From the NCBI RefSeq assembly GCF_027000115.1, contig NZ_JALTON010000029.1, positions 1 through 57,645 on the forward strand: a stretch of DNA of 57,645 nucleotides. Direction: 5' to 3'. The position numbers and the translations under genes were made by a program. Positions within the stretch are counted from its first letter, which is position 1. Each line of letters opens with the position of its first letter. This document shows positions 27,954-33,159 of this stretch, piece by piece. The notes beneath the pieces are model-generated. The model saw only the letters and a list, made by a program, of their open reading frames with translations, did not search any database and was not told the DNA's origin. Source of the DNA: Thiohalobacter sp. (GTDB taxonomy: Bacteria; Pseudomonadota; Gammaproteobacteria; Thiohalobacterales; Thiohalobacteraceae).

Positions 27954-28452
27954 CCCGGAGGCTTGCCCAGGCGAGCAGTGCAGAAACCAGGCCCAACAGC
28001 AGGCTCATCACCAGCAGCGCCTCGGCCATGGTGATGCCGAAGGCCAGTTCCGGGGTATAGCCGCAGGGCTCCCAGGGCTCGAACACCTGCGGCCACCAGC
28101 GATCCAGCGCCAGCCAGTCGGGGAGGCCGGCATCCATCTCGCAACTGCCTTCGATGAAACCCCGTTCCACACCCAGCAGCCGCCAGGAACGCTCGACCAG
28201 AATGGCCATGACCAGAGTATTGAGCCCGTGCAACAGGCGACGCACGTGAGGACGGTCGTCCAGCAACAGGCCGAGCACTGCCAGCAGCATCCAGGCCGCG
28301 ATCCACAACCGGACGTGGATGCAGAGGACGCAGGGGCCGTAGTCGAGCCGATACTGGTAATAAAGGGCGACGGCCTCCAAGGCAATGCCAAGCAGCAGCA
28401 GGAATCCCCACCAGGCCCGGCCTCGTGCCAGCCGTTCGATCAATGGCCGCAT
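27940..28452 (-). CDS. dsbB: Disulfide bond formation protein B
   Basis: Inner-membrane quinone reductase that re-oxidises DsbA. Four hydrophobic segments are present. The first periplasmic loop has the redox pair C-V-L-C (Cys41, Cys44). The second loop has the exchanging pair Cys104 and Cys130. All four catalytic cysteines are present. The ATG at 28452 with GGAGGAGAG directly upstream is better than the start at 28491. Upstream lies a copy of the dispersed repeat (28480-28502). Divergent from nhaD. Confidence 0.94.
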   Translation of the reverse strand: MRPLIERLARGRAWWGFLLLLGIALEAVALYYQYRLDYGPCVLCIHVRLWIAAWMLLAVLGLLLDDRPHVRRLLHGLNTLVMAILVERSWRLLGVERGFIEGSCEMDAGLPDWLALDRWWPQVFEPWEPCGYTPELAFGITMAEALLVMSLLLGLVSALLAWASLRARAG

Positions 28453-28479
28453 CTCTCCTCCGCAGCGTCTTCCGCTCCC

Positions 28480-28502
28480 GCCTCGGTGCAACAGGCGGGC
28501 TA
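28480..28502. repeat. Short dispersed repeat core upstream of dsbB
   Basis: Matches 652-674 at 19 of 23 bases and 18006-18028 at 18 of 23, in the same orientation (GGTGCA-N5-CGGGCTA core). Only this edge is present; the larger palindromic body seen at the other two sites is not evident here. Confidence 0.5.
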
Positions 28503-28510
28503 ACGCCGAC

Positions 28511-28516
28511 TATACT
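28511..28516 (+). promoter_or_regulatory. Candidate -10 element (TATACT) for nhaD
   Basis: TATACT is a strong -10 hexamer 118 bases upstream of the nhaD ATG. The -35 is poorly defined because it would fall in the repeat copy. A transcript from here would include the stem-loop at 28548-28578. Confidence 0.4.
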
Positions 28517-28547
28517 GTCTTCCACCCGAGCATGCCGCAAAAACTTC

Positions 28548-28578
28548 CGAGGTTCCATAGGCTTGACCCTAAACCTCG
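28548..28578 (+). promoter_or_regulatory. Stem-loop in the nhaD 5' leader
   Basis: CGAGGTT (28548-28554) pairs with AACCTCG (28572-28578); after a three-base CCA bulge, TAGG pairs with CCTA around a six-base loop. That gives 11 base pairs with one bulge. There is no following U tract, so it is not a simple terminator. It lies 56 bases before the ATG. Confidence 0.45.
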
Positions 28579-28634
28579 ATCACCGACGGCCGTTAACTCC
28601 CAGAACAGGCACCCTCTCAAGGAGCAACCACGAC

Positions 28635-30113
28635 ATGAACGGAAATCGCCCCCTCAAGAGCATTCTGGCGCTGAGCCTTCTCTCGTTCCCTGCCTCGACC
28701 TGGGCCGGGGAAAATGCACAACTCATGGATTTCACCGCCCACTGGGCAGGCTGGCTGGCCATCGGCCTGTTCGTGGCCGCCTATTCCCTGGTGGTGGCCG
28801 AGGAAGCCATCCACATGCGCAAGTCCAAGCCGGTCATGGTCGCGGCAGGTTTCATCTGGCTGATCGTGGCCCTGCTCTACGGCGCGGCGGGCGACACTCA
28901 CACCGCCGAGATCCAGGTTCGCCACAACCTGCTGGAATTCGCCGAACTGTTCCTGTTTCTGCTGGCGGCCATGACCTACATCAACACCATGGACGAGCGC
29001 GGCATCTTCGATGTGCTGCGCGCCTGGCTGGTGTCGCGCGGCTTTTCCCTGCGCACCATCTTCTGGCTCACCGGCGTGCTGGCCTTCTTCATCTCGCCGG
29101 TGGCCGACAACCTGACCACTGCCCTGCTGATGGCCACCGTCGCCATGGCAGTGGGCGGCAGCAACACCGGCTTCGTGGTGGTCGCCTGCATCAATATCGT
29201 CGTCGCCGCCAATGCCGGTGGCGCCTTCAGCCCCTTCGGCGACATCACCACGCTGATGGTATGGCAGAAGGGTATCGTCCAGTTTCAGGAATTCTTCGCG
29301 CTGTTCGTGCCCTCGCTGGTCAACTGGCTGGTGCCTGCTGCGATTCTCAGCCTGACCGTACCCAAAACCCAGCCCGACCCGATCGAGGCCGAGGTCGAGG
29401 TCCAGGCGGGTGGCTGGGTAGTGGTTGGCCTGTTCATCGTCACCATCGCCATGGCCGTGTCCGCGCACAATTTCCTGCACCTGCCGCCGGTGCTGGGCAT
29501 GATGACCGGCCTGGGCTTCCTCAAACTCTATGGCTACTACCTGAAGCGACAGGCCGGCGTGCATTTCGATCCGGAAGACAGCGAACTGCTGACCGAGGCC
29601 CTGGAAAGCGAGCACGAGGTGGGCGGGGGCCCGCGGGGAGGTGGCAGCCGTATCAAGGCCTTCAACGTGTTCCGTTCCATGGAACGCGCGGAGTGGGACA
29701 CGCTGATGTTCTTCTATGGCATTATCCTGTGCGTCGGCGGCCTGGGCACCCTGGGTTATCTGTCCATTGTGTCCGAATTCATGTACACCGACCTGGGCGC
29801 AACCCGGGCCAACATTCTGGTCGGCCTGCTGTCGGCCATCATCGACAACATCCCGGTGATGTTCGCGGTGCTGGCCATGTACCCGGACATGAGTCACGGG
29901 CAGTGGCTGCTGGTCACGCTCACCGCGGGCGTGGGCGGATCCATGCTGTCCATCGGGTCCGCCGCGGGCGTGGCCGTCATGGGCCAGGCGCGCGGGATCT
30001 ATACCTTCTTCGCCCATCTCAAGTGGGCATGGGCCATTGCACTGGGCTATGCCGCGAGCATCTGGGTACACTTCCTGATCAACGCCGAGATGTTCCAGCG
30101 CGCCGGCGGGTGA
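28635..30113 (+). CDS. nhaD: Sodium:proton antiporter NhaD
   Basis: IT-superfamily Na+/H+ antiporter, common in marine and salt-tolerant bacteria, that expels sodium at alkaline pH. A leading hydrophobic segment ending PASTWAGE looks like a signal peptide. Many membrane helices follow with conserved polar stretches ISPVADNLTTALLMATVAM, ANAGGAFSPFGDITTLMVW, and near the end SAIIDNIPVMFAVLAM. The ATG at 28635 follows AAGGAGCAACC. 492 residues. Its stop lies one base from the stop of the convergent LplA-DUF116 gene. Confidence 0.94.
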   Translation: MNGNRPLKSILALSLLSFPASTWAGENAQLMDFTAHWAGWLAIGLFVAAYSLVVAEEAIHMRKSKPVMVAAGFIWLIVALLYGAAGDTHTAEIQVRHNLLEFAELFLFLLAAMTYINTMDERGIFDVLRAWLVSRGFSLRTIFWLTGVLAFFISPVADNLTTALLMATVAMAVGGSNTGFVVVACINIVVAANAGGAFSPFGDITTLMVWQKGIVQFQEFFALFVPSLVNWLVPAAILSLTVPKTQPDPIEAEVEVQAGGWVVVGLFIVTIAMAVSAHNFLHLPPVLGMMTGLGFLKLYGYYLKRQAGVHFDPEDSELLTEALESEHEVGGGPRGGGSRIKAFNVFRSMERAEWDTLMFFYGIILCVGGLGTLGYLSIVSEFMYTDLGATRANILVGLLSAIIDNIPVMFAVLAMYPDMSHGQWLLVTLTAGVGGSMLSIGSAAGVAVMGQARGIYTFFAHLKWAWAIALGYAASIWVHFLINAEMFQRAGG

Positions 30114-30114
30114 A

Positions 30115-31692
30115 TCATTTCCCCGCGGCGGCGCGCTTCGGCTCCGGTCGCAGCAGGTGGCGGATCGGCGACTGCTCCAGCCGGACCTGGCGCCGGAAGC
30201 GGCCGGCATAGCCCTCGGCTTCCTGGCCCAGCCGGTGGCAGTTTGCACCCGCCAGGTCCAGCATCACCAACGGCAGACCAATGGCAATCAGGCGTTCCCG
30301 ATGCTTGGCCACAAAGGGCTCGCAGAGATTGACAATGACCGCACGGGCACCCTGTTCACGCAACGCTTCGAGCTGGCCGAACAGGTCGTCATGCCCCACC
30401 AGGGTATGCAGCGAGAGGCCTGCCTGCCGCGCCAGGGCGCGCACCTCGCCCACCTCGCAGCGTCCGCACTCATGGCAGCCATCGGCATGGCGCTCGCTGC
30501 AGTCCGGGGCCTTCGCACAATAGGGCACGAGCACCGCATCCGCCTGCGCCGCCAGCTCGAGCGCGGTCCGACCCTCGCCACCGACGGCCTGCAGCCCGTC
30601 CAGTAACCCGGGTGGCAGACCGAGGCGTCGTGCCAGAAGTGCATGCGAAAGGGCTTCGGTACATACCGCTACCAGGTCCCCCGTGTCGGCACCGGCCACA
30701 TGGGCATCCAGCGCCGCGCACTGCGCGCGGGCGCGTGCCGCGAGTTCCGCCACCGGAATACCCGCCAGCGCATCGCCGAACCGTTGCGGCAGGTCCGCGG
30801 GCTCGAAATGCACATCGCCACCCAGCGTCAGCTCCGAAACCACTTCGCCATCCGTTGAAAGCGCCAGCCGCGCATACAGCAGACCGGCCGAGGTGACCCG
30901 GATAGCCTCGCTCTGTGACGGCCCGCGGGTGACAGCTCGCTCTTCAACCTCTGCCGGCAAGCCGGTAGGGAGACGTTCGGGGCTGTCTTCGAAGGAACGC
31001 AGTCCGACGTAGATGCTCTTGCTGGGCTTGCGCGACTTGAGTTGCAGCCCTTCCAGCAGCGCGTCGGTGAGCTGTCGGCGCAGACGCATCAGCGAGGGCC
31101 TGCGACCAGTCTCCTGCGCAAGACCGGTGAGCCAGTCCCGTGCCGGGCGCGGCCTGCCATCGTGCCCCTCGGAGGCGTAGCGGAGCACATGCGCGATCCG
31201 CCCGCCATCTATGTCGACCAGCACGAAGCCCTGCAGCAGCACTGCGGCCCCGTAGCGCGCGCCGAACACGCCGGCGACCTTGCGCGCGCCGATCAGCACG
31301 TCATTCGGTGCCTCGAAGCGCGCATCCAGCCCTGTCTCGCACAGGGCCACGGCCATGGCCCGGCCAGCGGCCTCCAACATTTCAGGGAGATCGCGGCGGC
31401 TGCGGCCCAGCACCAGCGACCAGCAAAGCTGCCGGGAATCGACGTAGAGCGCACTGCCACCGGTAGCGCGGCGTAGCACCGGCAGACGATGCCGGCGCAC
31501 GAAAGCCGTATCCAGGGTACGGTCCGGCCACTGATGGCGGCCGAGCCACACGGATGTCGTACTGCGGTGAAAACGCAACAGGTTGGGCCGGGCGCCACGC
31601 GCGGCCTCCGCCAGCCAGTTGCGATCGATGAGCAGATTGCTATGCGCCGATCCGAGCCCGGTATCGACGACCATGACCTGCGGCCGGGGCAT
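30115..31692 (-). CDS. Lipoate-protein ligase-like protein fused to a C-terminal DUF116 domain
   Basis: Three parts can be read. Residues 1-215 are an LplA/BPL catalytic domain with RRATGGSALY (ATP/lipoate loop, Gly78-Gly79) and a catalytic-type lysine Lys138 in IGARKVAGVFGARYG. Residues 262-315 resemble the LplA accessory (LplB-like) domain (LTLGGDVHFEPADLP). Residues 385-500 are DUF116-like, with cysteines 392, 398, 406, 409, 412, then 457 and 485, including CHECGRC, suggestive of a metal or iron-sulfur site. GGAGGTG precedes the ATG at 31692. Substrate unknown; lipoyl attachment is predicted from family only. It lies downstream of pmbA across a 105-base gap. Confidence 0.8.
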   Translation of the reverse strand: MPRPQVMVVDTGLGSAHSNLLIDRNWLAEAARGARPNLLRFHRSTTSVWLGRHQWPDRTLDTAFVRRHRLPVLRRATGGSALYVDSRQLCWSLVLGRSRRDLPEMLEAAGRAMAVALCETGLDARFEAPNDVLIGARKVAGVFGARYGAAVLLQGFVLVDIDGGRIAHVLRYASEGHDGRPRPARDWLTGLAQETGRRPSLMRLRRQLTDALLEGLQLKSRKPSKSIYVGLRSFEDSPERLPTGLPAEVEERAVTRGPSQSEAIRVTSAGLLYARLALSTDGEVVSELTLGGDVHFEPADLPQRFGDALAGIPVAELAARARAQCAALDAHVAGADTGDLVAVCTEALSHALLARRLGLPPGLLDGLQAVGGEGRTALELAAQADAVLVPYCAKAPDCSERHADGCHECGRCEVGEVRALARQAGLSLHTLVGHDDLFGQLEALREQGARAVIVNLCEPFVAKHRERLIAIGLPLVMLDLAGANCHRLGQEAEGYAGRFRRQVRLEQSPIRHLLRPEPKRAAAGK

Positions 31693-31797
31693 CCGGCACC
31701 TCCTGCATCAGCTTATTCTGATACGGGGAAGTGTGCCGTGGCGGACCCCCGCGGCCCATGACCCAGATCAAGAGCAGGTTCACACGCATATGCAGGT

Positions 31798-33159
31798 TCA
31801 GTCCCCGGCGATGGTCATGGATTCGATCAGCACCGAACCGGTGCGGATGTTGCCGCGCAGGTCGACATCGGACCCGACCCGCAGGATCTGACGGAACATG
31901 TCACGCAGGTTGCCGGCCACGGTGATCTCCTCCACCGGGTACTGGATTTCGCCGTTCTCCACCCAGAAGCCGGCACAGCCGCGCGAGTAATCACCGGTGA
32001 CGATGTTCACGCCCTGCCCCATCAATTCGGTAATCAGCAGGCCGCGATCCATTTCACGCAGCAGGCCGTCGAGCCCGGGGCCGTTGCTGTCGATGGTGAG
32101 ATTGTGCACGCCGCCGGCGTTGCCGGTGGTCTGCATCCCCAGCTTGCAGGCGGAGTAACTGTCCAGCACATAGCCGCGCAGGATGCCTTCGCTGACCAGG
32201 TCACGCTCTCGGGTGGCCACGCCCTCGCTGTCGAAGGGCGCGCTGCCCAGTGCCTGCGGCAGGTGCGGCTGCTCGTGGATATGCATGAAGGCGGGAAAGA
32301 CGGCATGGTCGAGCTGGTCGAGCAGGAAGCTGGAACGACGGTACAGGTTCGAACCCCGCACCGCGGCCACGAAACTGCGGAACAGGCCGGAGGCCAGCTC
32401 GGCACTGAAGATCACCGGCGCCTTGCAGGTAGCAATCTTGCGCCCGCCCAGCCGGCGCAGGGTGCGCTGGGCCGCGCGCTCGCCGACCGCCTCCGCCGCC
32501 TCCAGGGCATCGGGCCGGCGCGACACCGTGTACCAGTAGTCGCGCTCCATGCGTCCGTCCTCGGCGGCGACCACGGCGCAGCTCAGGCTGTGACGGCTGG
32601 AACGGTAACCGCCGACGAAGCCATGGCTGTTGCCGTAGACGCGCAGACCCTCGTGACTGGACAGGGTCGCGCCCTCGGAGTTGCTGATGCGCGGGTCCAG
32701 CTCGCGTGCGGCCTGTTCGCAACGCAGGGCCAGCGTGGTCGCCGCCTCGGGTCCGATGTGCCAGGGGTGATACAGATCCAGATCCGGCACCTCGCGCGCC
32801 ATCAGCTCGGCCGGCGCCAGGCCGGCGCAGTCGTCCTCGTGGGTGTAGCGCGCGATGTCGCAGGCAGCCTCTACCGTCTCCGCCAGCGAACGCTCGGAAA
32901 GATCCGAGGTACTGGCGCTGCCCTTGCGCCACCCGTAGTAGACGGTCACGCCGACGCCGCGATCGCGGTGGAACTCGAGCGTCTCGACATCTCCGAGGCG
33001 GACCGTGACCGAGAGCCCCTGGTCCAGGGTCAGGCCGGCCTCGGCAGCCGTCGCACCCCGTTCGCTGGCAAGATCCAGTACCTGGCGGATGGTCTGCTCG
33101 AGTGCCTCGACCGCTGGCAACGGCACTTCGGTATGGGACAGGCCTTCCAGTTCATTCAT
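31798..33159 (-). CDS. pmbA: TldE/PmbA metallopeptidase subunit
   Basis: Partner of TldD in a heterodimeric metalloprotease that degrades unfolded peptides and matures some modified peptides and CcdA. 453 residues from the ATG at 33159 (MNELEGLSHTEVPL). The frame runs open further upstream but lies over the divergent darP start. Family stretches include GVGVTVYYGWRKGSAS, SNSEGATLSSHEG and NAGGVHNLTIDSNG. As in the family, it has no HExxxH of its own. Divergent from darP. Confidence 0.95.
   Translation of the reverse strand: MNELEGLSHTEVPLPAVEALEQTIRQVLDLASERGATAAEAGLTLDQGLSVTVRLGDVETLEFHRDRGVGVTVYYGWRKGSASTSDLSERSLAETVEAACDIARYTHEDDCAGLAPAELMAREVPDLDLYHPWHIGPEAATTLALRCEQAARELDPRISNSEGATLSSHEGLRVYGNSHGFVGGYRSSRHSLSCAVVAAEDGRMERDYWYTVSRRPDALEAAEAVGERAAQRTLRRLGGRKIATCKAPVIFSAELASGLFRSFVAAVRGSNLYRRSSFLLDQLDHAVFPAFMHIHEQPHLPQALGSAPFDSEGVATRERDLVSEGILRGYVLDSYSACKLGMQTTGNAGGVHNLTIDSNGPGLDGLLREMDRGLLITELMGQGVNIVTGDYSRGCAGFWVENGEIQYPVEEITVAGNLRDMFRQILRVGSDVDLRGNIRTGSVLIESMTIAGD

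Follow-up and report, generated by a model that had tools for sequence, protein, structure and literature searches.

A lipoate ligase–DUF116 fusion protein linked to the genes of O2-independent ubiquinone synthesis

Why a lipoate-protein ligase should carry a cysteine-rich domain of the DUF116 family, and which pathway such a protein serves, is the question raised by a gene in the window, the whole stretch of 57,645 nucleotides of Thiohalobacter sp. that was analyzed here. An earlier note on this DNA had proposed that a redox- or metal-sensing domain gates lipoyl attachment or that the protein serves a special lipoyl carrier. The comparative evidence leads elsewhere: the real context of the fusion is the ubiUVT pathway of O2-independent ubiquinone synthesis and not lipoate metabolism, and this was the strongest link found. 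The features of the locus are as follows.

30115..31692, minus strand: Lpl(AB)-DUF116 fusion gene, 525 aa (profile matches; full-length relatives)
31057..31644, minus strand: lipoate-protein ligase catalytic domain PF21948, residues 17–212 (profile and fold)
31279..31281, minus strand: Lys138, equivalent of the lipoate-ligase catalytic lysine; lost in G150, G247, and G284
30625..30930, minus strand: LplA-type accessory domain, approximately residues 255–356 (structure model, Foldseek)
30235..30552, minus strand: DUF116 domain PF01976, residues 381–486, with C392, C398, C406, C409, C412, and C457 inside and C485 at its end (profile)
31699..31704, minus strand: Shine-Dalgarno sequence AGGAGG
31758..31771, minus strand: FNR-like box TTGATCTGGGTCAT, 65 bp before the fusion start codon (2 mismatches)
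28425..30113, plus strand: nhaD antiporter gene, convergent with the fusion gene; outside the proposed function
31798..33159, minus strand: pmbA (tldE), upstream neighbor, kept in G004; outside the proposed function

The open reading frame of the fusion is intact and starts with ATG, preceded at a distance of 6 bp by AGGAGG. It converges with nhaD, and a single base separates the two stop codons, as had been read from the sequence before. The suspicion of an assembly or frameshift artefact can be laid aside, since the same fusion occurs in at least 24 related genomes from many genera. The C-terminal domain is indeed DUF116: the profile matches residues 381–486 with 31.5 bits (31.5–34.3 bits overall) against a Pfam gathering cut-off of 25, and this is the only occurrence of DUF116 in the window genome. 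With the domain matched and the fusion recurring in many genera, neither of the two outcomes that the earlier note had set against its own reading (absence of the match; confinement to this genome) was found. Genes in the neighborhoods compared were called with a simple ORF picker and BLAST against reference proteins. As functional partners, nhaD and pmbA were considered and rejected, because the adjacency to them is limited to the family of the window and is incomplete even there (the fusion does not have both as neighbors in G002).

The N-terminal half is a lipoate ligase by both profile and fold. A Pfam search of the window protein recovers LplA-B_cat (PF21948; residues 17–212; E 4.4e-28) and PF03099 (residues 68–162; E 3.6e-5); the accessory domain of this protein matched no Pfam family separately. 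Its predicted structure (mean pLDDT 78.7), however, aligns in Foldseek with full-length LplA (5icl, 1x2g) over approximately 350 columns with an E value of about 1e-20 (best 3.7e-21); because these templates comprise both catalytic and accessory domains, the accessory domain assigned in the earlier note is present too. The GG loop and Lys138 are likewise where they had been placed, except that the loop reads GGS instead of GGG; R74, R75, G78, G79, N130, D131, and K138 are all kept, and only the third glycine is replaced by serine. Most fusion copies, including that of the window, retain the ligase residues, and ligase activity may therefore still matter.

This retention does not extend to the entire fused family. 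In an alignment of 25 DUF116-bearing Lpl proteins, whose blocks flanking the ligase sites are clean, the position of K138 is occupied by threonine in G150 and G247 and by arginine in G284, so that three ubi-linked relatives have lost the catalytic lysine. The Asn-Asp pair has disappeared along with it in all three and is also missing in G220. By contrast, the seven cysteines of the DUF116 part, arranged as predicted (C392-x5-C398-x7-C406-x2-C409-x2-C412, followed by C457 and C485), are invariant in 25/25 proteins; they comprise the CxxCxxC motif (C406-C409-C412) and the at least six conserved cysteines that characterize the DUF116 family. Of 300 pairs compared, 285 also show the DUF116 part to be better conserved than the ligase part (mean identity 59.5% vs 40.3%). 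The invariance of the cysteines in the face of decayed ligase sites suggests that the conserved function, at least in those relatives, resides in DUF116 and not in lipoyl transfer. Thus, the idea of a redox or metal domain that gates lipoylation stands only in its first part: such a domain is likely, whereas a family that lost the lysine in three members and kept the cysteines cannot have gating of lipoylation as its conserved function. In the window copy, DUF116 is less conserved and the ligase residues are kept (save for GGS), so that this copy, judged by its residues, may be active as a ligase.

The model of the DUF116 part (pLDDT 75, with low confidence in the cysteine loops) has a Rossmann-like arrangement; folded alone and compared with the PDB, it yielded no significant match, the best Foldseek hit being to Argonaute (E 6e-3), and the best scores in VIA-align (Z 7.5) were to a designed Rossmann protein and type II dehydroquinases. 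These resemblances reflect nothing beyond a common arrangement. For DUF116 proteins, a role in electron transfer and metal binding by the CxxCxxC motif have been proposed, and a fusion of DUF116 to a polyprenyl synthetase has been described in Pirellula (PMC5898192). The domain studied here most likely binds a metal or an Fe-S cluster, as predicted for DUF116 proteins.

Full-length relatives of the window protein occur in two further genera of its family (45% and 39–40% identity) and in another gammaproteobacterial family (35–36% identity). A scan of bacterial genomes added 14 fusions, among them those of Sulfuricella, a member of Gallionellaceae, a member of Hydrogenophilales, a member of Chromatiales, Burkholderiales, and Kiloniellales. 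In a draw of 276 gammaproteobacterial genomes (completeness at least 90%), 11 carried DUF116, each time in a long open frame shared with the ligase; there was also one weak, short match. One genome (G196) has, in addition to the copy in its ubi cluster, an isolated second Lpl-DUF116 gene (L046:6442-7986), and a gene for a WbuC-family cupin follows the fusion in Sulfuricella-type genomes (L014:7581, L020:7605, L021:7605, L022:7850).

The association with ubiquinone synthesis is most evident from gene order. The fusion lies directly after ubiV in 11 clusters, with the order mnmL-ubiU-ubiV-fusion in G036, G165, G196, G220, G141, G150, G247, L014, L016, and L017, and ubiU-ubiV-fusion in G284, where mnmL does not adjoin ubiU; ubiT is often found beside these clusters. 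In L020, and probably in L021, the fusion is located a few genes beyond ubiUV. UbiU, UbiV, and UbiT scored above the NCBIfam equivalog cut-offs in the representative members scanned. The stop codon of ubiV overlaps a fusion start codon by 4 bp in nine of the 11 clusters, which suggests translational coupling.

Co-occurrence leads to the same conclusion. UbiV is encoded in 11/11 fusion-bearing genomes of the draw but in only 73 of all 276 (p=2.5e-7); the 11 genomes represent seven families, and the association persists with family as the unit (p about 9e-5). Within the draw, the fusion is found only in ubiUV-bearing genomes. Among further fusion-bearing genomes, 10/11 encode UbiV, the exception being an incomplete assembly whose near-twin has the gene; G594 (see below) also has UbiV. 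The co-occurrence with lipoate genes, which the earlier note had suggested as a check, is only partly reflected in the data: LipA is present in 11/11 and LipS2 in 8/11 fusion-bearing genomes, but the window genome has neither LipS2, which is absent from its entire family, nor an LbpA-type carrier, and the association with UbiV is stronger. A general anaerobic island does not suffice as the explanation, because the anaerobic NrdD is encoded in just 5/11 of these genomes; together with the figure for LipS2, this indicates that the link to UbiV exceeds what a mere anaerobic or sHdr lifestyle would produce.

Most ubiUV-bearing genomes of the draw (62/73) lack the fusion, so that the pathway is able to work without it. 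To our knowledge, there is no protein of the fusion type in E. coli. UbiU, UbiV, and UbiT synthesize ubiquinone without O2, and UbiU and UbiV each require a [4Fe-4S] cluster (PMC6747719); the ubiUVT genes are under the control of FNR (PMC10470549, PMC11707229). A comparison of the cysteines of UbiU and UbiV in fusion-bearing genomes revealed neither losses nor gains, and the cluster cysteines are intact. The open-access full texts searched contain no mention of the fusion as a UbiTUV component or of DUF116 together with ubiUV.

Several other genes accompany ubiUV. In four genomes with fusion-free ubiUV clusters, a gene for a TauD-family (Fe/2-oxoglutarate-type) dioxygenase lies directly after ubiV, and a similar gene is located a few kilobases further on in L061, which is odd in the neighborhood of an O2-independent pathway.

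L052:3852-4733, L053:5516-6448, L057:5579-6499, L059:5584-6480: TauD-family genes after ubiV

Genes for a TatD-linked radical SAM protein and MnmL recur in ubiUV clusters (L038-L040, L016, L017); nrdDG are found in L038-L040, moaA in L038-L039, and hemN and ubiD in L058. This gene set looks like a collection of O2-independent counterparts of O2-using enzymes.

In the family of the window, the fusion is no longer part of the ubi cluster: the window genome (G000) encodes it on contig C29 and ubiV on contig C60. G004 has it flanked by pmbA and nhaD, the arrangement also seen in the window, and in G002 that neighborhood survives only in an interrupted version. The separated genes are nevertheless preceded by FNR-like boxes in 3/3 genomes of the family: the 14-mer TTGATCTGGGTCAT of the window recurs identically in G004, 70 bp before the fusion start in an otherwise diverged spacer, and G002 has TTGACCCATATCAA (1 mismatch). 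The same is true of the separated fusions in Kiloniellales (3/3; TTGACTTAGATCAA), and boxes with 0–2 mismatches were found upstream of 8/11 clusters examined. Background matches in these loci number about 0.1 per 250 bp with at most two mismatches and 0.02 with one mismatch; taken alone, the box in the window is thus a weak sign of FNR control, which gains its weight from recurrence across genomes.

The window genome encodes LipA next to LipB and a single GcvH, and LipA and LipB are present in all 11 fusion-bearing genomes. Because LipB, LipA, and GcvH are encoded elsewhere in the window genome, the fusion is, by gene content, dispensable there for ordinary lipoylation. A special GcvH-like carrier was sought, but G000 and G004 each have only one GcvH, and neither LipS2 nor a second carrier of the LbpA type was found in the window genome; the dedicated lipoyl carrier postulated earlier is therefore not borne out for the window. 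Third GcvH-like proteins are encoded in G036 and G196 (L081:4110-4556, L084:4523-5032), not near the fusion; that of G196 (L081) has a Crp-type regulator and a further Lpl nearby.

Kinship to the dedicated ligases of sulfur oxidizers, to which the earlier note had pointed, is supported. In a tree of the ligase half, the fusions (24 rows, support 99/94) are the sister group of sLpl(AB) (12 rows, 98/96) and fall outside that clade; characterized sLpl(AB) lipoylate LbpA in sulfur oxidizers (PMC10332631). In G286, an sLpl(AB) with a C-terminal DUF116 (L072:7445-9088) lies inside an sHdr-LbpA-LipS2 cluster, in a genome without UbiV, and in G594 a long-branch Lpl-DUF116 gene of unsure placement in the tree (L071:7060-8679) adjoins an LbpA-like gene, with genes for LipS2 and an FAD-dependent reductase nearby. 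Either DUF116 was present in the common ancestor of fusions and sLpl(AB) and was mostly lost from the latter, or it was gained twice. These two loci and the LipS2 of 8/11 fusion-bearing genomes are what one would expect if the fusion were an sHdr-LbpA ligase that has been relocated within the genome. Since the family of the window lacks both LipS2 and an LbpA-type carrier, and eight other fusion-bearing genomes encode a separate, DUF116-free sLpl(AB) in their LbpA cluster, this reading is mostly refuted for the window and highly improbable.

An anaerobic lipoate or octanoate ligase for ordinary or dedicated acceptors, with DUF116 as a redox sensor or as an Fe-S or sulfur donor to the octanoyl group and with the adjacency to ubiUV reflecting shared FNR control only, would accommodate the retention of K138, R74-R75, GG, and N130-D131 in the window and most relatives, the sister relationship to ligases acting on LbpA, and the presence of nrdDG and moaA in some clusters. 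It is unlikely in view of the lost lysine and Asn-Asp residues of relatives with intact cysteines, the ubiquity of LipA and LipB, the single GcvH of G000 and G004, and the excess of UbiV over NrdD. Less likely still is a role of DUF116 in carrying or assembling Fe-S clusters for UbiU and UbiV or in scaffolding the Ubi complex: the operon evidence (ubiV-fusion order, 4-bp overlaps) applies to it equally, and both hydroxylases need [4Fe-4S] clusters whose ligands are intact in fusion-bearing genomes, but ISC and SUF are enough for E. coli to make ubiquinone anaerobically (PMC10470549). Nothing in the present data separates a carrier from an electron shuttle.

The preferred reading, held with even confidence, is that the fusion assists UbiU-UbiV-UbiT as an accessory factor induced under anaerobic conditions, with DUF116 as its conserved working part. 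Its ancestor, a lipoate ligase of the sLpl(AB) type that ended in DUF116, would have been recruited to the UbiUVT pathway and placed under FNR-type anaerobic induction; the Rossmann-like DUF116 with its seven invariant cysteines most likely holds an Fe-S cluster and probably has UbiU and UbiV, both [4Fe-4S] hydroxylases, as its partners in electron exchange, cluster loading being less likely, while the ligase half would bind a partner or ligand and may remain catalytically competent in the window copy. The narrower proposal that DUF116 is the electron-transfer partner of prephenate-dependent UbiU/UbiV and that the former lipoate ligase docks it to the Ubi complex is tentative and, as it stands, doubtful. 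By our own calculation, the balance of atoms in R-H + prephenate -> R-OH + phenylpyruvate + CO2 has two reducing equivalents left over, which makes an electron acceptor plausible but does not speak for this protein in particular.

DUF116, without an assigned function since it was named, is now genetically linked to a defined and assayable pathway, which makes the question of its role directly testable and suggests a lineage-specific fourth component of O2-independent ubiquinone synthesis. The fusion also exemplifies a lipoate ligase that sheds catalytic residues while the fused cysteine domain stays fixed.

The fusion model shares its two-domain fold with the LplA proteins of E. coli (1x2g) and E. 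faecalis (5icl), as well as the RR-x-x-GG and RK motifs, but has the additional DUF116 domain; the histidine of the LplA motif GGGAVxHD is replaced by V or L in the fusions and, likewise, mostly by F in sLpl(AB). Catalytic and accessory domains are common to sLpl(AB) and the fusions at about 30% identity, whereas the latter differ by the presence of DUF116, by neighbors that are ubiUV instead of LbpA and LipS genes, and by the loss of the catalytic lysine in some members. With DUF116 proteins (PF01976, COG1852, arCOG02078), the fusion has in common the CxxCxxC motif, at least six cysteines, and a flavodoxin- or Rossmann-like arrangement (PMC5898192), although the archaeal representatives have N-terminal transmembrane helices where a ligase precedes the domain here. 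While it stands outside the described components of the UbiT/UbiU/UbiV pathway, the fusion shares with them an operon and, as the recurrent boxes suggest, FNR-type control.
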